From contig JAQTNC010000007.1 of assembly GCA_028714475.1 (NCBI GenBank), positions 1 to 44,792 of the forward strand: a DNA stretch of 44,792 bases, written 5' to 3'. The position numbers were made by a program, and so were the translations under genes. The DNA is from Patescibacteria group bacterium. Lineage in GTDB: Bacteria > Patescibacteriota > Patescibacteriia > SG8-24. Of the stretch, positions 9,522 through 44,591 are shown piece after piece. The notes beneath the pieces were generated by a model. That model did no database searches and was not told the origin of the DNA. It was given only the letters and a program-made list of their open reading frames with translations. Within the stretch, counting starts at the first letter, position 1. Every line of letters starts with the position of its first letter.

Positions 9522-10952
9522 ATGAATACTCCAAAATGGGTTTTGCCGGTGGCCATTGCGGTCTTGGGCCTGGCCAGCTTGTCGGCGGCGCTGGTCGTCG
9601 TGTTCCGCGCCGTCGGGCCGCGGCAATCTCAACTCACCCTCGTGTCCAAGCCGGCTCCGGTGGTCTCGGTCAAGCAGCTTGAAGGCACCGAGGTCGGCAC
9701 CGGATCGAGCGGCAACGACGACCCCAAGGTGGCGGTTGAGGAGGCGGCGGACATGGCCCTGAAAGACAAGAAGATGACGCCGGATTTTGCCGCCGTGTTC
9801 GTCAACGCGGGTACGGATGCCAGCGCGGTCTTTTCGGAGTTGCGTCAGAGATTCGGCGAACAGATCAAGATTTTCGGCGGCACGTCCTCGGCGCGCGCCG
9901 TCATGTCGGACAAGGGCATGATCGCCATCGAGGGTCAGGGTTTCAGCGAGGAATACCGTCAGGCGCGCAAGGGCCTGGTCATGATGACCGTGGCGTCAAA
10001 GGACATCACCTTCGGCGTCGGGACCGCACGCATCTCGGAGCATGCCTCGTCACAGGAGGCGGGCGCCGCCGCGCTCCGCGAGGCCTTGAAGAGCATCGGC
10101 AAGACGGAGGCCGATAAGCCCAACGTCATCCTGATGACGACCATCCGTCCGGAAGAAGACAACGTGATGGCTGGCATCGAGCAGGTGATGGGCAAGGACG
10201 CCGTCATCTTGGGCGGCACGGCCGGCGGCCCCAACTTTGCCGTTTTCGGCAAGGACGGCGCCTATAATGACGGCGTTTCCATCGCCGTGTTGTTCACGGA
10301 CCTGCCCGTCGGCTGGACGTTCAGCAACAGTTTCGATACGCCCGACCTTCGTTACGGCGTCGCCACGAAGGTTGACGGCATGGAGCTCATCGAAATAGAC
10401 CATCGCCCGGCGCTTGACGTGCTCGACGAATGGCTCGACGGTGAGATCACGCGGATTCATTCCGAAAACAGCGATCCGCGGTTTGTTAGAGATTTCTTGG
10501 CCGTGCACCCCTTGTATCGGAAATTCATGTCGGCGGACGGGCAGGCATACTTCATCATTTCGCATCCGTGGCCTAAGGACGAGAAGATGGTCGGGCGAAC
10601 GCTCATGACCGCGACGCACATCAAGGAAGGGGAGACGGTCTTCCTGGGCCGCGGCAGCCTTGACCAGATCATGAACGGCATTGCCAACTTGCCGGGCACG
10701 GCCAAGCGCAACGTCGGCATGGACATCAATGAACAGCCGGTGCTGGCGTTGGGTTTCGTCTGTAACGGCGCCCTCGGTGCCTTGCCGGAAGAGGAGCGCA
10801 TGAAGTTGCCCAAGCTGGTCGGAACGGCGACCGGCGGGGCGCCCTATCTCGTCGTTTATTCCTACGGCGAACAGGGGCACTTGCCGGGCTACGGCAATGC
10901 CCACGCCAACCTCTCCGCCTCGTTCCTGGTCATCGGCAGCGGCCAACGCTGA
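9522..10952 (+). CDS. Membrane-anchored FIST domain protein
   Basis: 476 residues. An N-terminal hydrophobic helix (residues ~5-30) precedes a ~40-residue linker and then FIST N and FIST C domains. FIST features visible are FGGTSSARAVMSDKG, ILGGTAGGPNF, the C-terminal GALGALPEEE stretch and a final SYGE-HANLSASFLVIG strand. FIST is a ligand-binding sensory domain, usually cytoplasmic and fused to kinases, cyclases or chemoreceptors, and proposed to bind small ligands such as amino acids. Here it is alone and, judged by the N-terminal helix, displayed outside the membrane, which is unusual. The helix could be a cleaved signal peptide, but no clear A-x-A site is seen. It ends at a perfect bidirectional terminator. 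Confidence 0.85.
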   Translation: MNTPKWVLPVAIAVLGLASLSAALVVVFRAVGPRQSQLTLVSKPAPVVSVKQLEGTEVGTGSSGNDDPKVAVEEAADMALKDKKMTPDFAAVFVNAGTDASAVFSELRQRFGEQIKIFGGTSSARAVMSDKGMIAIEGQGFSEEYRQARKGLVMMTVASKDITFGVGTARISEHASSQEAGAAALREALKSIGKTEADKPNVILMTTIRPEEDNVMAGIEQVMGKDAVILGGTAGGPNFAVFGKDGAYNDGVSIAVLFTDLPVGWTFSNSFDTPDLRYGVATKVDGMELIEIDHRPALDVLDEWLDGEITRIHSENSDPRFVRDFLAVHPLYRKFMSADGQAYFIISHPWPKDEKMVGRTLMTATHIKEGETVFLGRGSLDQIMNGIANLPGTAKRNVGMDINEQPVLALGFVCNGALGALPEEERMKLPKLVGTATGGAPYLVVYSYGEQGHLPGYGNAHANLSASFLVIGSGQR

Positions 10953-20239: not shown

Positions 20240-20431
20240 GTTCTGCCCCGAGCGAAGTCGAGGGGCAGAACCAATAATATACGTCCGGCCGTGCGGGGTC
20301 GCCCTTACGGCACGCTCGTCCGCTCCAGCGGCGGCCTTCGCTCACGTCGCCGACCCGCGTCGCCCCTCGCAAGCTCGGGGACCAAGCCGACGCGGGCGTC
20401 GAGTGGCCTTAAAGGGCGACCCCGCACGGCC
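20240..20431. repeat. Two-copy ~190-bp structured intergenic element, copy 1
   Basis: It starts with a perfect 10-bp palindrome GTTCTGCCCC/GGGGCAGAAC (20240-20249 and 20262-20271). A second perfect inverted repeat has 20-bp arms (20287-20306 and 20412-20431) 105 bp apart. Copy 2 is at 25806-25995. No gene is seen from 20199 to 20561. The remainder of that gap (20432-20561) has no clear structure. Confidence 0.85.
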
Positions 20432-25805: not shown

Positions 25806-25995
25806 TTCTGCCCCGAGCGAAGTCGAGGGGCTGAACGACAACAACGTCCGGCCTGGCGGGGTCGCCCTTACGGCACGCTCGGCCGCTCCAGCGGCGGCCT
25901 TCACTCACGTCGCCGTCCCGCGTCGCCCCTCGACAAGCTCGGGGACCGAGCCGACGCGGGCGTCGAGTGGCCTTAAAGGGCGACCCCGCCCGGCC
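25806..25995. repeat. Two-copy ~190-bp structured intergenic element, copy 2
   Basis: Same order of parts as copy 1 at 20240: CCCCGAGCGAAGTCGAGGGG, then long arms 25850-25869 and 25976-25995 with one mismatch, enclosing a CCCCTCGACAAGCTCGGGG palindrome. The copies are in the same orientation and differ at scattered positions. Confidence 0.85.
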
Positions 25996-26263: not shown

Positions 26264-29116
26264 ATGACCACCACCCACGACAGCAGTCGTAGCATGGTCG
26301 CCAAGAGGATCGCCTTTGGCGCGGGGATCGGGGCACTCATGACGGTCGCCGCGCTCGGCATCGGCATTGGCGTCCTGCGGGCGCAGGAGGCGGCCGAGGC
26401 GCAGTCAGGCCAAGATGTCCAATCTGGCGGCTCGCCGCCGGGCGTCCAGCAAAGCCCGACCGAGGCGGAAATCGCCGCCTTCGAGCAGGAACAAGGCGCG
26501 CCGATGGAAGCATTCAACGACGCCCCGGTCGAGTTGCCGCCGTACGAGGAACCTGGCAGCGTGCCCCCAGAGGTGCGTGCGCTCGTCCCGGAGAAGGACC
26601 TCATCGACCTCAACTGCGCGATGACGCGCTGGAAGAGTGGCAGTTTCTTTGCGGCCATGGATGCGATCAAGACCTACATGGTGCCGGCCGCGCAGAAGGC
26701 TCTAAATGCCGGCATTGACCTGCCGGTGCCCGACACCGCCGGCATGAAGGCCGAAGGCAACAGCCGCATCGCCGCCATCTGCGCCGCCAAGACGCTCGAC
26801 GACGCCCAGCAGTTGACCAAGGACTTCGCTCGGTGGGGCCGCGACCAAGGCGCCGAGCAAATGAGCGGTCAGCGTACGGTCATGAGCGAGAAGATGAAGG
26901 CTCAGGGCGACCTCATCAAGGTCAAAGTCAACGAACAGCTCCAGCCGTTCATCGATCAGGAAACGGCCAAGATCTCGCCGGACATCGAGGCGCGAGCCCA
27001 AAGCATCGTTAACAGCATCCTTGCCCCATGGAAGAGCGCCGGGCTGACCGGCGCGCCGTCGGGCACACCGCCGACCGAGGCGGAAATCACCGCCCAGGTC
27101 GAGGCCCAGCTCCAGCCGTACATCGCCCAGAAAAAAACCGAGATCGAGACCAAGATCAAGGCTAAGGCCCAGACCATCGTCGCGCCGGAGACCAAGCGGC
27201 TCCAGGCCATCGGCGCGATTTTCGAGGGCATCGGCCAGAAGATTGACGCTTACATCAAGTCGCACGAGGGGGCTTACGGCAACAAGTACAAGAGCCAGGC
27301 GCTGAAGCTGCGCAAGAACGTCATCATCGCCTTGCTCGACAAGAACGTTGCCGAAGCGACGAAGGCGATTGACGCCAATGCGGCGCAGTTGGATGCCGCC
27401 AAGAAAGCCGATCCCAAGGCAAAGAGCGCGGCCGATCTCAAGGCCGAACTCAAGACGGACCGCAACGCCGTGGTCACCAAGATGACGGCGGCCGTGAATG
27501 CCGACGACGAGTTCGCGCTCTCCCAAGCGTTGGATGATTTCCGGAATAAATGGGACGGCATCCAGGCGGCCGGCGAGAAGTCCGCCGCCGAGGCCGTGGG
27601 CAAAATCTGTACCGCCGCCACGCCGCAGTTCGCCGCCGCGGTCAAGAAGATCGAGCCCACCATGGCGAAAATCCAAAGCATCCTGAACCAATGCCAAGGT
27701 CAGTCCACGACCGACTGCCTCAAGGTCAATGAGTTCGCCGACCGGCTGGACACCGTGAACACCAAGCTCGGCGACCTCAAACTCGAGATGGGATTCGCCA
27801 GCCAGCTTTGCGCGGAACCGACGCCGGATACCGCCGCCCTCTTCCCGCTCCTTGAGAAGCTCCAGGCCGACGGCGAGGACGCGCGCATCTACGGCGAAGC
27901 GCTCATGGCAGAAAAGCGCCAAGCGCTCGCCGACACCGGCAAGTCCGCCTGCGACCAGGCCCTGCCCCAGCTCGCCGCCGCCCAGCTTGAGCTCAAGGGC
28001 GATGATCTGGTCATCCTCAAGAACAACCTCGACCGTTGCGCAGGCAAGGCCACGGATGAATGTTCGGTCGTCAACGGAGTTCGTTCGCAGTACGACCGGT
28101 TCAACGGCCAGGTCAAGACGTTCGTGGATAACGTGAACAAGGTCGTGGCCATGTGCAAGGGCGCAAAAAACATCCAGAACGTCGATGATCTGTTTTCGAC
28201 CCTCTCCGACCTGAACGATCAGGGCGACGAGTTGCGCGGTCTGGCGGCGGATCTCAAGGCCGATCAGGCCGAGAACTCCGGCGGCAAGGCCTACTGCCGT
28301 TTCGTCAAGGAAAAGATGCAGTTCGCCAAGGCGACCGTTAGTCAGAACCTCCGCGTCGTCCTTGACCTCACGCAACGATGTCAGGCCTCGGCCAACTGCA
28401 AATCCATGAAGGTCATTCAGGACAAGGGCGCCGATCTTCGCAACCGAGCGCAGGGTCTGCTCAACAACGATATTGCGACCGTTGAATCGGCGTGCGCCAA
28501 CAAGGATCTCGGCACGTACGGCCCACAACAGATCAAGGATTTCATCACCGGTCCCGCCGACCGCGTCAAGAGCCAGGGCGAGGCGCTGGATGCCGAGGCC
28601 AACGCGTTCAAGGCCGAGATAGAGGCCGCCGTGAGGGGTGTTCAGGCCGGCATCTGGATCGAGGCAGAACAGGAAGTTGCCAGTTTCATCAAGCCGATCG
28701 GGACGCGGCCCGCCACGAACACGAAGGAGATCAACCCGCCATGGCGGCCGCCCTATTACGGCACCGGCGACTGGTATCTGGCCGCGGGAGGCGAGTGGCT
28801 CAAGTACAGCTTCACCGTTCCCAAAGCCGCCAAATACTCGTTCTGGATTCGCGACTACGTTGACAAGTTCCAAGCCCGCGGCATCCGGCGCGTCATCGTG
28901 GAGATTGACGGTAAGCGCTACGCGGTGACCGGCGAGAACGACCGCAACCCGCAGGGCGACAAGGGGACGTTCGCTTGGCACAAGGTCGGTTCGGGCATCC
29001 AGCTTACGGCCGGGGCACACACGCTCACGATCACGAAGGAGAAAACGACCGCGGGCGCGGCCATCCTCGACGCCTACTACTTCACTTCCGGCAGCGAGAC
29101 GCCGGCGGAAAAATAA
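26264..29116 (+). CDS. Large exported protein with coiled coils, three C4 helical repeats and a C-terminal beta-sandwich
   Basis: 950 residues. An N-terminal hydrophobic segment (~15-40) anchors or exports it. A Pro/Glu-rich stretch is followed by long helical coiled coils with an internal duplication (LQPFIDQETAKI / LQPYIAQKKTEI). Then come three ~115-residue helical repeats with matching cysteines: C449-C477-C485-C516, C563-C592-C600-C631 and C678-C706-C712-C744. From ~795 a beta-rich domain starts IWIEAEQEV and ends ILDAYYF, resembling CBM6/35-type carbohydrate-binding modules. The spaced Cys suggest intra-repeat disulfides outside the membrane. A stalk-like surface protein that binds glycan is inferred. 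I know no family with this combination. Confidence 0.7.
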   Translation: MTTTHDSSRSMVAKRIAFGAGIGALMTVAALGIGIGVLRAQEAAEAQSGQDVQSGGSPPGVQQSPTEAEIAAFEQEQGAPMEAFNDAPVELPPYEEPGSVPPEVRALVPEKDLIDLNCAMTRWKSGSFFAAMDAIKTYMVPAAQKALNAGIDLPVPDTAGMKAEGNSRIAAICAAKTLDDAQQLTKDFARWGRDQGAEQMSGQRTVMSEKMKAQGDLIKVKVNEQLQPFIDQETAKISPDIEARAQSIVNSILAPWKSAGLTGAPSGTPPTEAEITAQVEAQLQPYIAQKKTEIETKIKAKAQTIVAPETKRLQAIGAIFEGIGQKIDAYIKSHEGAYGNKYKSQALKLRKNVIIALLDKNVAEATKAIDANAAQLDAAKKADPKAKSAADLKAELKTDRNAVVTKMTAAVNADDEFALSQALDDFRNKWDGIQAAGEKSAAEAVGKICTAATPQFAAAVKKIEPTMAKIQSILNQCQGQSTTDCLKVNEFADRLDTVNTKLGDLKLEMGFASQLCAEPTPDTAALFPLLEKLQADGEDARIYGEALMAEKRQALADTGKSACDQALPQLAAAQLELKGDDLVILKNNLDRCAGKATDECSVVNGVRSQYDRFNGQVKTFVDNVNKVVAMCKGAKNIQNVDDLFSTLSDLNDQGDELRGLAADLKADQAENSGGKAYCRFVKEKMQFAKATVSQNLRVVLDLTQRCQASANCKSMKVIQDKGADLRNRAQGLLNNDIATVESACANKDLGTYGPQQIKDFITGPADRVKSQGEALDAEANAFKAEIEAAVRGVQAGIWIEAEQEVASFIKPIGTRPATNTKEINPPWRPPYYGTGDWYLAAGGEWLKYSFTVPKAAKYSFWIRDYVDKFQARGIRRVIVEIDGKRYAVTGENDRNPQGDKGTFAWHKVGSGIQLTAGAHTLTITKEKTTAGAAILDAYYFTSGSETPAEK

Positions 29117-29129
29117 CTCCTGAAACCAT

Positions 29130-29759
29130 ATGTGGAATAAATTGCCAATTCGAAACAGGGGTCTTAGGTCCGTTCTCGCCGTATTCGTGGGCGTCGGGCT
29201 TATGACGACGGCCGTCTACGCCGCAACAACCGCCAGCTCCAAGCCCATCAAGATGCCGGCCATCAAGGGCAAGCCGACGGTCACGAAGCTCGCCGCACCG
29301 CCGAAGCTCACGGGAGTGCTCAAGGAACTGGACGACCTGACGATTGATGTTCCGGTGCTCGACCTGTCGGCGTCGCCGATTCCTGACCTCAAGTTGTCGT
29401 CGCTCGCCGTGCTCGTGCCAGAACTGCCAAGCAGGGGGGAGTTCAAGAATTTGGCCACGCCGGTGGATACCGCCGTTCAGCCGGAGGTCAACATTGAGAT
29501 ACCAGCACTCGACATCGAGATGCCGACGACGGGTTCGGAGGGCGCGACCGGCGGCGTCGTAGCCGCGCCGGAAACCGGCGCGCCAACGGGCGAGACCGGC
29601 GGTGCGCCTTCGGGCAGCCAAGGCGGTTCGCAGTCAACGGAAGTGAACGCGACCAACTGCGCCCAGTTCGCTTCCATGCCGAGCGTCCAATACTGCAGCT
29701 CGGTTGCGGATCCGAACGGCGCCACACTTTGCACCTCCTGCAAGAACGGGGGTTTCTGA
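29130..29759 (+). CDS. Exported low-complexity protein with a C-terminal Cys cluster
   Basis: 209 residues. It has a signal-like N-terminus (RSVLAVFVGVGLMTTAVYA-AT), a Lys/Pro-rich section, then Asp/Leu/Pro-rich beta-like repeats (DVPVLDLSASPIPDLKLSS), an acidic Gly/Thr/Ser linker, and a compact end with four Cys (NCAQF, QYCSS, LCTSC). It starts 13 bp after the 950-residue protein, so both are probably one operon and may act together at the surface. No family is recognised. Confidence 0.65.
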   Translation: MWNKLPIRNRGLRSVLAVFVGVGLMTTAVYAATTASSKPIKMPAIKGKPTVTKLAAPPKLTGVLKELDDLTIDVPVLDLSASPIPDLKLSSLAVLVPELPSRGEFKNLATPVDTAVQPEVNIEIPALDIEMPTTGSEGATGGVVAAPETGAPTGETGGAPSGSQGGSQSTEVNATNCAQFASMPSVQYCSSVADPNGATLCTSCKNGGF

Positions 29760-38221: not shown

Positions 38222-39898
38222 ATGGAGACGGCTTTCAGCCGCCTTAAGATTCGACTCGTGACAGCCGGCGCGGGCGCGGTTGTTGGTTTTTTGTTGCTCG
38301 CGTTTCCGGCTCATGCCGGAGCAATGGAGAACGTCACCGGTTGGCTTTGGTCCGGGACGGCCGGCTGGATTTCGATGAACTGCACGAATTTTGGTACCTG
38401 CGCCACTTCGGATTACGGCGCGAATCTTGATTACGCGGCCGGCGGCGGCAGTTCCGGAGAACTGACCGGCTGGGGCTGGTCGGAAACGTTCGGTTGGGTC
38501 TGTTTCGGCAAAACCTGCCCGGACGACGTCAAGAACCCGGAGAACACGCCCCAGAATTACGCCGAGCTTAGGGAGTACGTGGACGACGGCACGCCGGGCG
38601 GTCGGCATTGGCAGTTCTACGGCTGGGCCCGCATCCTGAACATGGGCGCGAACGGCTGGCTGTCGCTCAACTGCTATAACGAGACTCACGGCGCCTGTGC
38701 CGGCAGCAATTATTACGTTTCCTACGACATCAGCACGGGTTTCTTCTCGAACGTGACCGATGTCGCCAATCGCGACCGCAACCATTACGGCTGGAGCGGC
38801 AACAGCGACGGCACGGGCATCGGTTGGGTTGATTTCAGCCTCGCGCATGGCAATTGGGCGCCACCCGTCGTCGGGCCGGTCATTCGCCCGGAAGGCGTGT
38901 ACGAGCCGGCCGGCTCGCTGATTCCCGGCACGCACCCGTCGCAATTCGAGATTCGCTTGCCGAGCGTCTCTTCCCCGCAGAATTTCCTGCTGGAATGCGT
39001 GCTCAGCCTGCCGAATGGCGTGAAGCGCATCTTGAGCAAGCCGGTCGAGAGCGTCTGGTTCAACGTGGCGGAAAGTTTCCTTTACCAAGTTCCAGCTTCT
39101 GATCGCGGCACTGATGCCATCCAGCGCGGTAAGCTTTGGTACATCGAGACCTGCCGATTGCTCGACAAGCCGGGGACACAGGCTTGCGTTGCCGATGACG
39201 ATTGCGTGAGCGGCTTTTGTCGTCCCGACCCGGCGCTGCCAAGCGGCCCCAACCTTTGCCGGGCGGTGGCCGATGCCTCGACGCCGAAGCCGCTTTATAT
39301 CCATGATAACCGTTGGAGCCTTTACGGAGCCGATGACGATTTCTATCGCGCCGTGAAATGCTACGCCACCTTCGCCGATCAGTTCTTCCGCAACGCCAAC
39401 CGGTGCGATTTCGCCGGCGACGCCAGCTTCAGCATGGCCATGAGCAAGGGCATTCCCATCGAACGCGATTGCCACAACGGCGTGGACGACGACCTCAACG
39501 GCCTCACGGACTGCGAAGATCCCTTCTGCAAGGGCATCTCGTATTTCTGCAAGCCGGAGGAAAAAAGGCATCTGCCGACGCGTTGCATTTGGTCCGAGGC
39601 CGGTCAGCAGATCCCGCGGTGCGGCGACCTTACGTATAAGCGCAGCAACCTCTGCTGTAATGACCAGCCGGATGAGCAGGGCTCGAACTTCCATTACGTC
39701 GTGGACGCGATGGAGTGTGAGTACGGCAACCCGGCCGACGGTTACTTTGACTGTGACTGCCAGACGCAGGAGGATTTTGACGCCAACCCGAACGACGATT
39801 GTTACGCGCCGGGCCACCAGTCGGGGAACTTCTGCTGCGAACGCATCACACAATGGCCTTCCGGCGACGTCATCGGCAGCCGGGTCATGAAGAAATGA
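38222..39898 (+). CDS. Exported Cys-rich protein with GWxWS-type Trp repeats
   Basis: 558 residues with a signal peptide (VTAGAGAVVGFLLLAFPAHAGA). The N-terminal third holds four Trp repeats of the GW-x-W-S...GW-I/V form: GWLWSGTAGWIS (~40), GWGWSETFGW (~83), GWARILNMGANGW (~134) and GWSGNSDGTGIGW (~190). These are common in Patescibacteria surface proteins, function unknown. A middle beta-rich part follows, then Cys-rich modules including one D-D-D-x-N-G...D-C repeat (HNGVDDDLNGLTDCEDPFC) like those in the next gene. It begins an operon: the 1563-residue gene starts 1 bp after its stop. A role in a pilus or adhesive surface structure is inferred from pilM downstream. Confidence 0.75.
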   Translation: METAFSRLKIRLVTAGAGAVVGFLLLAFPAHAGAMENVTGWLWSGTAGWISMNCTNFGTCATSDYGANLDYAAGGGSSGELTGWGWSETFGWVCFGKTCPDDVKNPENTPQNYAELREYVDDGTPGGRHWQFYGWARILNMGANGWLSLNCYNETHGACAGSNYYVSYDISTGFFSNVTDVANRDRNHYGWSGNSDGTGIGWVDFSLAHGNWAPPVVGPVIRPEGVYEPAGSLIPGTHPSQFEIRLPSVSSPQNFLLECVLSLPNGVKRILSKPVESVWFNVAESFLYQVPASDRGTDAIQRGKLWYIETCRLLDKPGTQACVADDDCVSGFCRPDPALPSGPNLCRAVADASTPKPLYIHDNRWSLYGADDDFYRAVKCYATFADQFFRNANRCDFAGDASFSMAMSKGIPIERDCHNGVDDDLNGLTDCEDPFCKGISYFCKPEEKRHLPTRCIWSEAGQQIPRCGDLTYKRSNLCCNDQPDEQGSNFHYVVDAMECEYGNPADGYFDCDCQTQEDFDANPNDDCYAPGHQSGNFCCERITQWPSGDVIGSRVMKK

Positions 39899-39899
39899 T

Positions 39900-42800
39900 A
39901 TGACGCGCCGCATTTTCGCCACTTCCATCGCTCTGACTTTCGCCGGTTTGCTCCTCATGGCGTGGTTGGGTGTGCCCCGTCCTGCCGCCGCGATGATCGC
40001 ATCGTCGCCTTGCCCCGGCAACGTATGTGCCGATTTCCTGACCATTGGCGGACGGCGCGTGGATTACTGGTACACCCAGCACGTGCGGCCAGACGGGCAG
40101 TTCCGGATCCGTTTTTCCCTGAACGGCACCTATTCGAGCAGCCAGCTCATCTCGTTCATCGTTTTCCAGATGCCGTCGTTCGATTCTTGGGACAAGCTGG
40201 CCAACCCCGATCCGACCAAGAACGCCACCTATCTTCCGGAGGAAGGGGTGACGCTTGATCGCACCGCGTACGAGCGGCGCGCGTCCAGCGGCTGCGCTAC
40301 GGCCTGCTGGGTCGATTTCGTCATGTCGGTCAAGTATTCGGGTCTGGCGGAAGGGGAGCATTCCTTTAACGTTTATGTCGTGCAGAACGGCGCTTCCGGC
40401 GGGCGCAACGGCATCAAGTTCTACGCCGATGCCGGCGCGCCGTCGAACACCGACGAATCGGAAATTTGGGCCGCCATGTCGGGGATGGATTATCCTTGCG
40501 CTGACCTCGGCGGCGGACAGCCCATTGATAACGACCTCAACTTCCTGCCGAACTGCCAAGATCCGAAATGCGACGGTCAACCCGGCAGTCGGACGCAGAC
40601 TTGGAAGAAATGCGAGATTCCTGAACGCACGTGCAACGACGCTTTTGACAACGACGGCGACGCCAGCCCGGACTGCAAGGACCAGGACTGCAACGGACGC
40701 CAAGGGTATCCGCCCATGCAGCCGCCGCCCCTGCCGCCTCTCGCCGACCCGCCAGCGTACTGCCAATGGCCGAACGAGCGCGGCGCGCCCGGTTCGCTGA
40801 ACGGCACCACGCCGTGTGACGACAAGTTTGACAACGACGCCGACGGGCGCACGGATTGCGTTGACAACCGCGAGTGGACGCCGGCGACCGGCGAACAGTT
40901 CTACAACGTCTATCTGGCCGCCTCAACGCCCGGTGGCCTGGCGTTCCCGTCCTCGGACGCCAACATCTGCTGGCGCCAGTCCTCTTACGGCTGTCCGTTG
41001 CGGGAGGTCTGTACCCTGGCGGACAATGATGTGGCGACAGCTTTTGACGATGACGTCGATCAGAGCTACGTTCATGTCAATTACGATGCCAATCCGGTGA
41101 GCGGCGCCGGTTGCCGCGATTATGATTGCGCGGGCGCCCCGAGCTGTCCGGCGCACGAGAACGAGGAGGTCAAGGCCGACGGCACTCGCGTCCAGAACGA
41201 CTGCCAGTGCTTTGACGGCGTTGACAACGACCTCGACCATCTCATCGACTGTGCCGATCCGGATTGCCTCGGCGCCGAATGTGCCACCTTGCCGGGTCGC
41301 ACCTGCTACGACAAGGAATTCGACCTCGGCCAAAAAATCCAGCTTTGCGGCAACTTCATCAACAACGACCGCGCCCAGCCGATTGACGACGACGGCGACG
41401 GCCCGCCGAACTGCCAGGACTCCGACTGCAAGGGCAAGTTCGGCAACTGCGGCCCATGCCCGAAGCGCGAGGATTTCACCTACGCCGCCTGTGCCGACGG
41501 CGAGGATAACGACGTCAACGGCCAGGCCGATTGCCGCGACGCTAAATGCCGCGTGGGCAACAAGATCGGCGACCTCACGAACGCCGCGGTCTGCTCCGGC
41601 GCGGAGAATTCCCCGGACATGTGTTCGGACGGTTTTGACAACGACTCGAACGGAAATGCGGACTGCGGCGACTCGAGCTGCGCCGGCCAAGCGGCGTGGC
41701 CGATGTACGGCTATCTCAACACGCATTATTTCTGTGGGCCAGAAAACAACGCCGCCGCCTGCAGCGACGGCTTCGACAACGACGCTGACGGCAAGATTGA
41801 TTGTCAGGATTCCGACTGCTGGGGAAAAAACGGATGCGATGCCGGCGACTGGGGCAAGGCCGCGTGCCTCACCGACGCCGATCGCTACGATCCGGTGTCC
41901 GGCTGGAAGTATTTTTCCGAGGTTGACCCGACGGTCGGCGTGAAAACGCGCCGCATTGCCCACGTGAATCAGGCTGATGTCATCGACTTCAATGGCGTGA
42001 GCGATTACTCGTCCGTCACCATCATCGTCGGCGACAACACCGATCCGGCCAAGCATTATCCGTACGCCGACAGCGCCGGCTGCACGTTGCAGGGGGCCGA
42101 TGCGGCGCTCTTCGGCACGACCATCGTGCCCGGCAGCGCCATCATGATTTTCAACAAGAATCCCGGCGTCGCCGTTAACGGCTTCAGCTTCAGCCTCCGG
42201 TGTGTCACGCCCGGCACGCCGGTGCCCGCCCGGCGCAACTATCCTATCGGCGTCTCTGTCCTGCGGATGACCGGAGATGCGGAGTATGGTGACCTGCAGT
42301 TCGGCACCAGCCTGCTCGAAGCGACCCCACCGACCGTCGTGCGCATCGAGAGCGAGGGCGCGGTGGGTGGCTCGGTCCGCGTGCCGTACGGCGGCGGCTT
42401 CTCCTTCCGCGTCGTGGCCGACGATCCCGGCGTGGGCGACGACACGACCGGCATCTGCCGCTGCGGCTTGGCGATTGACGGCGATTACACGCCGACTGGC
42501 GCTTTCGATTCCGCCACGAACGAATGTCTGGTTGAGCCGGGCGGACAATATGCCACCTGGCGTGACGATCGTCAGTCTGACGGGACTGATTTGCCGGATT
42601 TGGCCCCGCTCTCACTCGAGATGTATGCCCGAGACGGTGCCGACAACGAGAGCGGTTGGCAGGCGGCCGGGAGCCTCGCCATCAACGTGACGCCCATCGT
42701 GACGCCAGGCGAGGAGCTCAAGATGGTCTCCCCGAAAGCGCCGTTCTTCGCCGGCAAGGCGGACACGCCTGACCGCCTGAGTTTTTCCGTCGGCTTCACG

Positions 42801-44591
42801 ACCGCCCGCAACGACCGCTTCGGTCCGACCTGCGAGATTTATGTCCGCGATCAGGACGGCAACGTCAAGTATGCCGCCGGACACGGCCCGTTCGGGCCGA
42901 CGGCGACGGTCGCGGCCATCGGCGGCCTCGGCAACACGGTGCGTTGTGAAGGCGAAATCACCGCCCCGGACGAGTTCCCGACCATCTCGCTCACCCAAAG
43001 CGGCACTTACCACCTGACCGTGGCCATCGCCGACGCGGACGGGGATTATGTTGAATCCAACCGCCAGGTCTTCTACTTCTGCCCCACGGTTCCCAAGGCC
43101 ACCGATCCCGGCTCACTCGACACCGAAGTCGAGCCGATTGACGTGTGCCATTGGGCGGACCTCGACGGCGACGGCGCCACTGAGGGCTTTTTCACCACCC
43201 TCTATACCCCGACGCCGCAGGCCTGCGACAACTGCGTCAACCTGGACAATCCCGGCCAGGAGGATGCGGACATGAACGGCGTCGGCGACGAGTGCGAGAA
43301 CCTCGGCCGTTGCGAGGTGGATAAGGACATCGTCTGCACGCACGACTCTTGGGATTTCCCCGTCTGCCCCGTTAACGACCCGAACTGCTGCAACGGGAGC
43401 AACTGCTGTCCCGCTGGGGACAAGACGGACGCGACCTGCTGCCCGGGACCATCCATCAATCCGGATCCGCTCGTCCAGCCGCCGACTGACCCGCCGACCT
43501 ACCGCGACCCGCAAGCCTGCTTGAGCGACTGGGGGCTTTGCTCCTGGACCGGCGAGGTCTGCTTCATGAAGAACAATAACCTCGACTGCCCGGGCCCCGG
43601 CGTCTGCTCCCTGACTGGCGCGTCTTGCAAGGAGGCAACCATGGTGCCGGCCGAATGTGGCGAGTGCATCGGCGAGGAGGTCTGCCTCCAGCTCACCTAC
43701 CCATGGATCCAGGCGAAGCAGGGGAATGTCTTTTCCGGCAAGTCCATCAAGGCCCGCGAGGACGCCCCGCTCAAGAACGCCACTTTCTGCATCACGGCCA
43801 AGGACACCATTCAGTCCTTCGCCAGCGAATCCTGCACGAAGACTCCAGAAGAGGTCGCTCAGGATAAGTACACCGACCTGACCCTGCCTAAGCCGCGCAA
43901 CGCCTACTCGACGCCCCTGGGCCGGATCGACATCAGGGGCCTGCTGGCGGGTCGGTACGGCGAGGTCATTACGTTGACGCCGACCGAATTCAACAATTCC
44001 GCCGTCTTTCCTCCGGCGGACGGCCTGCAAGGGCGCGTGTACGTCGTGGAAGGCGATCTTACGGTTGGCCAACCCGGCGACCCGCCCCTGGTCATCAGGA
44101 ACGGAGGCCCGGGCGAGCCGCCCGTGAGCGGCACGGGCACGGTCGTGATTAAGAACGGCAACCTGCTGTTCAACCGTGACGTGGTCTATGAGGGGCCGAA
44201 TTTCGCGACCAGCCTCGTCTCGCCGGACCAGATCGCCTCCCTCGGCTGGATCGCCCTTGACCAAACGGATTCGACCGAACCGACCTACGGTCAGCGCGGC
44301 AACGTCCTCGTCCACAAGGACGTTCAGCGTCTGGACGGCGCGATATATGCCGGCGGCCAGGCGGGCTTCTATTCCGTGGCCGCACCGGACACGGACAGCC
44401 CGTTGCCGCTCACCGTGAACGGGCTGATCGTGGCGCGGCAATTCCACTTCAGCCGGTCGTACAAGAGCAAGGAGCGCGGCTCGGAGCAGGTTCTTTACGA
44501 CGGGCGCGCCGTCGCCAACCCGCCGCCGGGTTTCGCGGATATTGCCAAATCCCTGCCCCTGTTCGGCTCCGCGCCAATCATCATGCAGTGA
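39900..44591 (+). CDS. Giant exported protein with DNDxDG metal-binding-like repeats and a Patescibacteria-type C-terminal domain
   Basis: 1563 residues. A signal peptide (SIALTFAGLLLMAWLGVPRPAAA) and an N-terminal beta domain precede about eight repeats of the form D-G-x-D-N-D-x-D-G-x-x-D-C-x-D-x-D-C (roughly residues 205-650), similar to MopE-type metal-binding repeats. Two or more Ig-like or beta-sandwich modules follow (~660-1060). A thrombospondin-3-like segment (DNCVNLDNPGQEDADMNG) and a Cys-dense stretch come next (~1105-1280). The last ~310 residues (VYVVEGDLTVG, GTVVIKNGNLLFN, GLIVARQFHFSRSY, YDGRAVANPPPGFADI) match a C-terminal domain I associate with PilX-like proteins of Patescibacteria. 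Probably a calcium-stabilised adhesin or pilus-associated protein. Confidence 0.75.
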   Translation: MTRRIFATSIALTFAGLLLMAWLGVPRPAAAMIASSPCPGNVCADFLTIGGRRVDYWYTQHVRPDGQFRIRFSLNGTYSSSQLISFIVFQMPSFDSWDKLANPDPTKNATYLPEEGVTLDRTAYERRASSGCATACWVDFVMSVKYSGLAEGEHSFNVYVVQNGASGGRNGIKFYADAGAPSNTDESEIWAAMSGMDYPCADLGGGQPIDNDLNFLPNCQDPKCDGQPGSRTQTWKKCEIPERTCNDAFDNDGDASPDCKDQDCNGRQGYPPMQPPPLPPLADPPAYCQWPNERGAPGSLNGTTPCDDKFDNDADGRTDCVDNREWTPATGEQFYNVYLAASTPGGLAFPSSDANICWRQSSYGCPLREVCTLADNDVATAFDDDVDQSYVHVNYDANPVSGAGCRDYDCAGAPSCPAHENEEVKADGTRVQNDCQCFDGVDNDLDHLIDCADPDCLGAECATLPGRTCYDKEFDLGQKIQLCGNFINNDRAQPIDDDGDGPPNCQDSDCKGKFGNCGPCPKREDFTYAACADGEDNDVNGQADCRDAKCRVGNKIGDLTNAAVCSGAENSPDMCSDGFDNDSNGNADCGDSSCAGQAAWPMYGYLNTHYFCGPENNAAACSDGFDNDADGKIDCQDSDCWGKNGCDAGDWGKAACLTDADRYDPVSGWKYFSEVDPTVGVKTRRIAHVNQADVIDFNGVSDYSSVTIIVGDNTDPAKHYPYADSAGCTLQGADAALFGTTIVPGSAIMIFNKNPGVAVNGFSFSLRCVTPGTPVPARRNYPIGVSVLRMTGDAEYGDLQFGTSLLEATPPTVVRIESEGAVGGSVRVPYGGGFSFRVVADDPGVGDDTTGICRCGLAIDGDYTPTGAFDSATNECLVEPGGQYATWRDDRQSDGTDLPDLAPLSLEMYARDGADNESGWQAAGSLAINVTPIVTPGEELKMVSPKAPFFAGKADTPDRLSFSVGFTTARNDRFGPTCEIYVRDQDGNVKYAAGHGPFGPTATVAAIGGLGNTVRCEGEITAPDEFPTISLTQSGTYHLTVAIADADGDYVESNRQVFYFCPTVPKATDPGSLDTEVEPIDVCHWADLDGDGATEGFFTTLYTPTPQACDNCVNLDNPGQEDADMNGVGDECENLGRCEVDKDIVCTHDSWDFPVCPVNDPNCCNGSNCCPAGDKTDATCCPGPSINPDPLVQPPTDPPTYRDPQACLSDWGLCSWTGEVCFMKNNNLDCPGPGVCSLTGASCKEATMVPAECGECIGEEVCLQLTYPWIQAKQGNVFSGKSIKAREDAPLKNATFCITAKDTIQSFASESCTKTPEEVAQDKYTDLTLPKPRNAYSTPLGRIDIRGLLAGRYGEVITLTPTEFNNSAVFPPADGLQGRVYVVEGDLTVGQPGDPPLVIRNGGPGEPPVSGTGTVVIKNGNLLFNRDVVYEGPNFATSLVSPDQIASLGWIALDQTDSTEPTYGQRGNVLVHKDVQRLDGAIYAGGQAGFYSVAAPDTDSPLPLTVNGLIVARQFHFSRSYKSKERGSEQVLYDGRAVANPPPGFADIAKSLPLFGSAPIIMQ

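Follow-up and report, generated by a model that had tools for sequence, protein, structure and literature searches.

A predicted secreted stalk protein with four-cysteine helical repeats, and its adjacent partner gene, in Patescibacteria

The stalk gene and its downstream partner

The window, i.e., the whole 44,792-nucleotide stretch of contig JAQTNC010000007.1 that was analysed here, contains a reading frame that is open across 950 codons and encodes a product of 950 aa (Table 1). The gene is single-copy in its own 1.4-Mb genome. Read from its sequence, the protein consists of a signal peptide, a C-x54/55-C module, three homologous repeats with four cysteines each (C4 repeats) and a CBM-like C-terminal domain. 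It has 14 Cys in total, Cys118 and Cys173 of the N-terminal module (the head) and the three quads of the repeats. Both head cysteines are present in all ten aligned members of the family, with the spacing C-x54/55-C, and cleavage sites of the A-Q type (cut between A and Q) recur by eye in most relatives of the stalk protein.

Table 1. Features of the stalk gene and the partner gene (positions in the window).
Feature	Position	Strand	Basis
Putative secreted C4-repeat stalk protein, 950 aa	26264..29116 (stop included)	+	ORF; homologues sharing the Cys pattern
Predicted signal peptide, residues 1-40, cleavage after A40	26264..26383	+	By-eye sequence reading
N-terminal module, residues 105-195, Cys118-x54-Cys173, CAMTRWKSG motif	26576..26848	+	Alignment
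Cys-free helical rod (predicted), residues 196-440	26849..27583	+	AF2 helices 178-257, 272-320, 323-371, 389-412
C4 repeat 1, Cys 449/477/485/516	27584..27928	+	
C4 repeat 2, Cys 563/592/600/631	27929..28273	+	
C4 repeat 3, Cys 678/706/712/744	28274..28633	+	
CBM6/35-type beta-sandwich tip (predicted), residues 795-950	28646..29113	+	Foldseek, VIA, weak Pfam CBM_6, alignment
Partner protein, 209 aa: N-terminal membrane segment, conserved LDxSxSPxPxLKLS segment, Pro-rich linker	29130..29759	+	13 bp downstream
Four-Cys C-terminal tail of the partner	29643..29756	+	

A gene for a small partner protein lies directly 3' of the stalk gene on the same strand, with a gap of 3-38 bp, at all nine loci where this could be tested. 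Its conserved segment has the consensus LDxLxxxAPxFDFSxSPLPxLKLSxLNL, and the four-Cys tail is found in eight of nine partners, the one from G008 ending before it. No second convincing copy of the tail was found in the source genome, and the idea that it is a general sorting signal was rejected, since every strong match in 17 genomes was a partner. A profile of the partner matched 16 of 380 genomes of the class at E 0.01. Seven of these matches are strong (E <1e-30) and all adjoin C4-repeat genes, one in G005 has an E of 1e-11, and eight are weak (E 0.001-0.009), of which that in G209 adjoins a C4 gene. It was this profile alone that led to the divergent stalk member upstream of the G005 partner, which the profile of the large protein had missed; this member has 554 aa and retains the C-x54-C head, whereas its Cys beyond the head differ. 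The N-terminus of one partner (L031), KKGFSVVQ, is reminiscent of prepilins; a Pfam scan of eight partners gave no pilin family in any of them. Judged from its adjacency, shared orientation and co-occurrence, the small partner forms a two-gene cassette with the stalk, and we favour, with some reserve, that it is a dedicated subunit or tether.

Further along the window two adjacent ORFs (38222-39898 and 39900-44591) encode products of 558 and 1563 aa with signal-like segments at their N-termini and with 28 and 76 Cys (~5%). They have no Pfam match at E 0.01 and are probably secreted.

The C4 repeats and their predicted fold

The sequence-only reading of this locus had described three helical repeats of ~115 residues at residues 449-744 with the pattern C-x27/28-C-x5/7-C-x30/31-C, and the spacings as well as the homology between the repeats confirm it. 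The quads are spaced 27-7-30, 28-7-30, and 27-5-31, with 46 residues between repeats. When residues 440-790 were shuffled 200,000 times, three such quads were never obtained and two only in one shuffle. Profiles of repeats 1, 2, and 3 (8, 8, and 7 sequences, respectively) align with one another along almost their whole length, with pairwise hhalign probabilities of 98.4, 98.6, and 97.9, and still of 96.8, 97.0, and 95.1 when the Cys are masked, while the N-terminal and coiled-coil regions, used as a control, reached no more than 4.5 against the repeats. The N-terminal Cys module was also considered as a degenerate C4 repeat and rejected (hhalign probability at most 0.5). As shuffling fails to reproduce the quads, as the profiles match even with the Cys masked and as the rest of the protein does not match, the quads are, on this sequence evidence, true ancient repeats and not chance spacing. 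Their age is indicated by the fact that a BLAST self-comparison of the stalk protein gave no internal repeat and that the stalk gene has no tandem repeat at the DNA level. It could be argued that Cys happen to fall at these distances within an ordinary coiled-coil protein, as the composition is coiled-coil-like and PDB sequence searches with the helical parts returned coiled-coil background only (best E 5.8e-4). The shuffles and the masked homology already refute this, as does the conservation of the quads in relatives from several families of the class, which leaves chance a negligible probability.

Across the family (see below) 23 quads passed the spacing filter, with arms of 27-28 and 29-31 residues and a turn of 5-9. 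The count leaves out repeat 3 of L032, where C2 and C3 are lost, repeat 1 of L027 (C1-x34-C2), a repeat-like stretch past the L027 stop codon, and L058, whose Cys are spaced differently; contig ends truncate L009 and L026. The earlier statement that the repeat belongs to no named family holds for the libraries searched. In a Pfam scan of all 23 repeats no family covered the C4 repeat and hits were scattered, and PHROGs and NCBIfam had no family for it either. The best Pfam family was Spectrin_Anc-1_2 (PF24615), found in three of the 23 with an E of 5.2e-4 at best; window repeat 1 had no spectrin hit. The openly accessible journal literature that was searched gave no description of a C4-stalk family. 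The family is thus undescribed in the libraries and literature searched.

AF2 models were made from an alignment of five sequences, for the whole stalk protein (mean pLDDT 69.4, pTM 0.37) and for residues 416-790 alone (mean pLDDT 75.6, pTM 0.48), and the two agree on the helix layout. In the shorter model the helices span residues 445-477, 483-516, 523-592, 598-633, 638-669, and 674-708. Each repeat begins with an antiparallel hairpin of helices A and B, joined in repeat 1 by a five-residue turn, and the helix at 523-592 is continuous over 70 aa, serving both as third helix of repeat 1 and as helix A of repeat 2; between repeats 2 and 3 the helix is broken by 4 residues. The closest PDB structure in a Foldseek search with the repeat model was alpha-spectrin repeats 15-17 (E 0.04, prob 0.82), at a TM-score of only 0.21-0.24. 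VIA aligned 92-93 residues of repeat 2 with designed three-helix coiled coils of the antiparallel type at Z 12.0-12.5 and an rmsd of 1.7-1.8, which supports a three-helix bundle but not kinship, as helical bundles often reach Z values of ~12. A Foldseek search of viral models returned tail proteins and CBM-like structures at low TM-scores and was judged uninformative. On these models each C4 repeat is probably a disulfide-stapled three-helix (A-B-C) bundle, and a long rigid stalk can reasonably be inferred.

The model, which is of moderate confidence, places the Cys of each hairpin at the helix ends, C1 and C2 at those of helix A, and C3 and C4 at those of helix B. C2 and C3 adjoin the turn; C1 and C4 are located towards the open end of the hairpin, at a distance of 28 and 31 residues along the two arms. 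C1-C4 with C2-C3 is the only pairing that fits the predicted hairpin: C1-C2 or C3-C4 pairs would have to bridge over 40 A of helix, and no single antiparallel register serves both C1-C3 and C2-C4. One natural relative has lost such a pair, as the hairpin of repeat 3 in L032 is ~16 residues shorter, lacks its tip along with both C2 and C3 and keeps both C1 (670) and C4 (720). The number of Cys is even in every member with an ORF uncut by a contig end, i.e., 14 in most members, 12 in L032, 8 in the divergent G005 protein, and 6 in the short G209 ORF. The earlier proposal of two disulfides per repeat thus gains support from the predicted topology and from the coupled Cys loss in L032, and two disulfides are probably formed; the fold, however, is predicted to be three-helix and not two-helix. 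The Cys could also form crosslinks from one molecule to the next in a fibre, or coordinate metal at subunit contacts, and the two close pairs of the hairpin, C2/C3 and C1/C4, are separate and might be used by a dimer. We regard this as quite improbable, as the loss of C2 together with C3 and the retention of C1 together with C4 in L032 are most simply explained by pairs within the repeat, and as a single metal site cannot take up all four Cys of a repeat when the pairs are ~42 A apart (28 residues x 1.5 A).

In favour of oxidative folding we count three DsbA-like (Thioredoxin_4) matches in the source genome and the Cys-rich ORFs of the window; neither VKOR nor DsbB, either of which could have recycled DsbA, was found in the source genome, which counts against it. 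We rejected a connection of VKOR with the cassette, as VKOR matches occur in four of nine cassette genomes versus nine of 12 others. A published survey describes an MdbA-like thiol-disulfide oxidoreductase family that is enriched among CPR bacteria and in some cases lies next to VKOR (PMC6744442).

Relatives, constant head and exchangeable tip

The Cys pattern was recovered in relatives within the class, which we take to be ABY1. Near relatives gave matches in five of 95 genomes, the source genome included, with G003 matching by the CBM domain only. A profile search of the class found the cassette protein in eight of 380 genomes, a patchy distribution. Across the phylum three of 379 genomes matched at E 0.001, one of them the source genome; the other two matches cover 75-79 profile positions (E 3e-4 and 6e-4) in ORFs without a BLAST match to the query and were rejected as helix background, so that no convincing member beyond the class was found in these 379 genomes. 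The repeat profile matched ten of 229 class genomes at E 0.01, where those in G151, G159, and G219 (E 0.002-0.004) were rejected as weak, and the profile of the N-terminal module matched two of 67 (G000 and G034) and added no new member. Against genome contigs the single stalk protein as query gave no related locus and an alignment query gave four, L032 coming from that scan; viral contigs searched with the alignment query gave no related locus, and tblastn against plasmids and phages no match.

All 14 Cys are matched in position in the window protein and in L030, L031, L033, L010, and L024, the last with its N-terminus split by a frameshift. L025 and L026, read separately, also match the 14 Cys, and the two seem to be parts of a single gene split over two contig ends. 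The G209 relative is only 504 aa with one repeat, followed by a repeat-like stretch past the stop codon and a short partner-like ORF; at positions 10075-10687 of that locus (L027) the C4 stretch after the stop is in frame and precedes the partner-like ORF, as in a decaying or split cassette. A second member in G008 (L009, 9051-10388) lies on the contig of L008/L033 and is truncated by the contig end at its first repeat Cys, the paralogues being ~22 kb apart.

The tip had been described as a CBM-like beta-sandwich starting with IWIEAE (residues 797-802), and this agrees with the matches of residues 795-950 to CBM6/CBM35 structures by Foldseek and VIA. VIA gave Z 14.0 for 2cdp_B (rmsd 2.3 over 120 residues) and Z 12-13 for CBM35 and CBM36 entries, and residues 795-942 superpose on solved CBM6/35/36 beta-sandwiches. 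The tip shares with these modules the N-terminal EAE and C-terminal LDA(Y/F) positions, presumably Ca-site-like, but differs from them in its own conserved loop, W-R-P-(P/A)-x-x-G-x-G in the alignment, in not being joined to a hydrolase, and in scoring below the Pfam cut-off: CBM_6 (PF03422) reaches 21.9 bits for the whole protein and 26.2 for the domain, with a gathering cut-off of 28.9. Glycan binding by the tip seems fairly likely.

The CBM is carried by six of the eight members with a visible C-terminus (window, L030, L031, L033, L024, and L025), a count that leaves out the short G209 and divergent G005 proteins. L010 has an unrelated C-terminal domain in its place, and L032 has no tip domain. 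The replacing domain in L010 (7436-9976, G001) has no Pfam family. A CBM-like tip, 61% identical, is also found in G003 (L011, 2924-4927) on a different helical protein without C4 repeats, which on sequence evidence is tip swapping; G129 has a weak match to the CBM. The three repeats and the tip are each dispensable, as the CBM is missing from L010 and L032 and the G209 ORF has one repeat. What is constant across cassettes is the head and the partner, and what varies is repeat number and tip, as one would expect of a tethered stalk whose tips can be exchanged. The sequence-only reading did not include the partner, the C-x54/55-C module or the finding that relatives exchange or lack the tip, and as the CBM is exchanged or absent in relatives, a glycan-binding tip is weakened as the defining function of the family.

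A possible role at the cell surface

As modelled by AF2, the C4 stalk would resemble spectrin and alpha-actinin repeats, which are tandem A-B-C helical repeats of ~106-115 residues with a helix continuous between neighbours. It differs from them in being bacterial and, as predicted, secreted, in having two Cys pairs per repeat and in lacking a sequence-family match for the window repeat. CHCH (twin CX9C) proteins and alpha-hairpinins are short twin CX3C or CX9C hairpins with C1-C4 and C2-C3 disulfides and arms of ~3-9 residues. A helical hairpin stapled in this way is what the C4 repeat would share with them by prediction. The C4 arms are far longer, however, at 28-31 residues (x27-28 and x29-31 across the 23 quads that passed the filter), a third helix packs on the hairpin, and no CHCH or alpha-hairpinin family was among the Pfam hits shown for the 23 repeats. 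A stalk with a binding tip is a known design, which here is built from a repeat without a named family. Periscope proteins and Embp-like stalk adhesins are likewise reported to present a binding domain on a repeat stalk of variable length (PMC8201768; PMC9704523; PMC9302970), but they are surface proteins of other bacteria with other repeats, whereas the C4 stalk is probably anchored by a separate membrane partner. The type IV pili of Saccharibacteria are surface appendages proposed for host binding in Patescibacteria (PMC12206443); Pfam gave no pilin or pilus-machinery similarity for the stalk or for the eight partners scanned.

Most probably the large protein is exported, loses its signal peptide and is folded oxidatively. 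By prediction, C1-C4 and C2-C3 disulfides would staple both ends of the A-B hairpin. Helix C would run into helix A of the next repeat to give a spectrin-like rod, which the staples would stiffen against unfolding under load. We know of no earlier stalk that gains stiffness from disulfides at both ends of every helical hairpin. The partner may anchor the assembly by its N-terminal membrane segment and may use either the conserved segment or the Cys tail to hold the constant N-terminal module of the stalk. The stapled rod would set reach and stiffness, and the variable distal end (mostly the CBM, elsewhere another domain or nothing) would project from the cell and bind a ligand outside it, most likely a polysaccharide carried by another cell or by a surface. 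Taken as a whole, this reading of a secreted, disulfide-stapled and partner-tethered stalk with an exchangeable tip has about even chances of being right. Adhesion to a host or surface is a plausible hypothesis, though we would place it somewhat below even. It is tempting to speculate further that Patescibacteria of the ABY1 class hold their ultrasmall cells on the host by a two-component surface structure, in which a stapled spectrin-like rod of adjustable repeat number has its C-x54/55-C head docked on the dedicated membrane partner and carries interchangeable recognition tips; all of this together is unlikely to be correct in every part.

The main rival is that the CBM binds wall or capsule glycan of the cell itself, the rod being a strut or spacer between membrane partner and wall. 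CBM-type modules serve self-attachment elsewhere, the membrane-anchored partner is constant while the tip varies, and the G001 member is adjoined upstream, on the same strand, by a gene for a PGA_cap (capsule-synthesis) protein. Yet L032, without a CBM, and L010, with another domain, keep rod and partner, and therefore wall binding via the CBM cannot be the shared role; we consider self-anchoring a minority possibility, at perhaps one chance among several. It is less probable still, and rather doubtful, that the stalk serves secreted hydrolases by trapping extracellular polysaccharide close to the cell. A gene for a GH42/GH10-like protein of 342 aa does lie immediately upstream of the G034 stalk gene and a homologue lies ~5 kb from that of G309 (for most other relatives the comparison of neighbours covered BLAST of locus against locus and a name-free listing), but there is no linked hydrolase among the part of the window ORFs that was scanned, and the stalk protein has no catalytic domain by Pfam.

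Little is known about how most Patescibacteria recognise and hold their hosts, and most of their surface proteins lack annotation. The stalk and its partner offer a defined and testable gene pair, with a constant head plus partner, a stapled rod and an exchangeable tip, and if the tip binds a specific glycan this would be a clue to the as yet unknown partner with which an uncultured lineage associates. The C4 repeat itself is potentially useful as a rigid, disulfide-locked helical building block.

Finally, the window has a ~150-bp interspersed repeat in two copies that are 94-97% identical (20281-20431 and 25844-25995), the second of which precedes the stalk gene by a few hundred bases.
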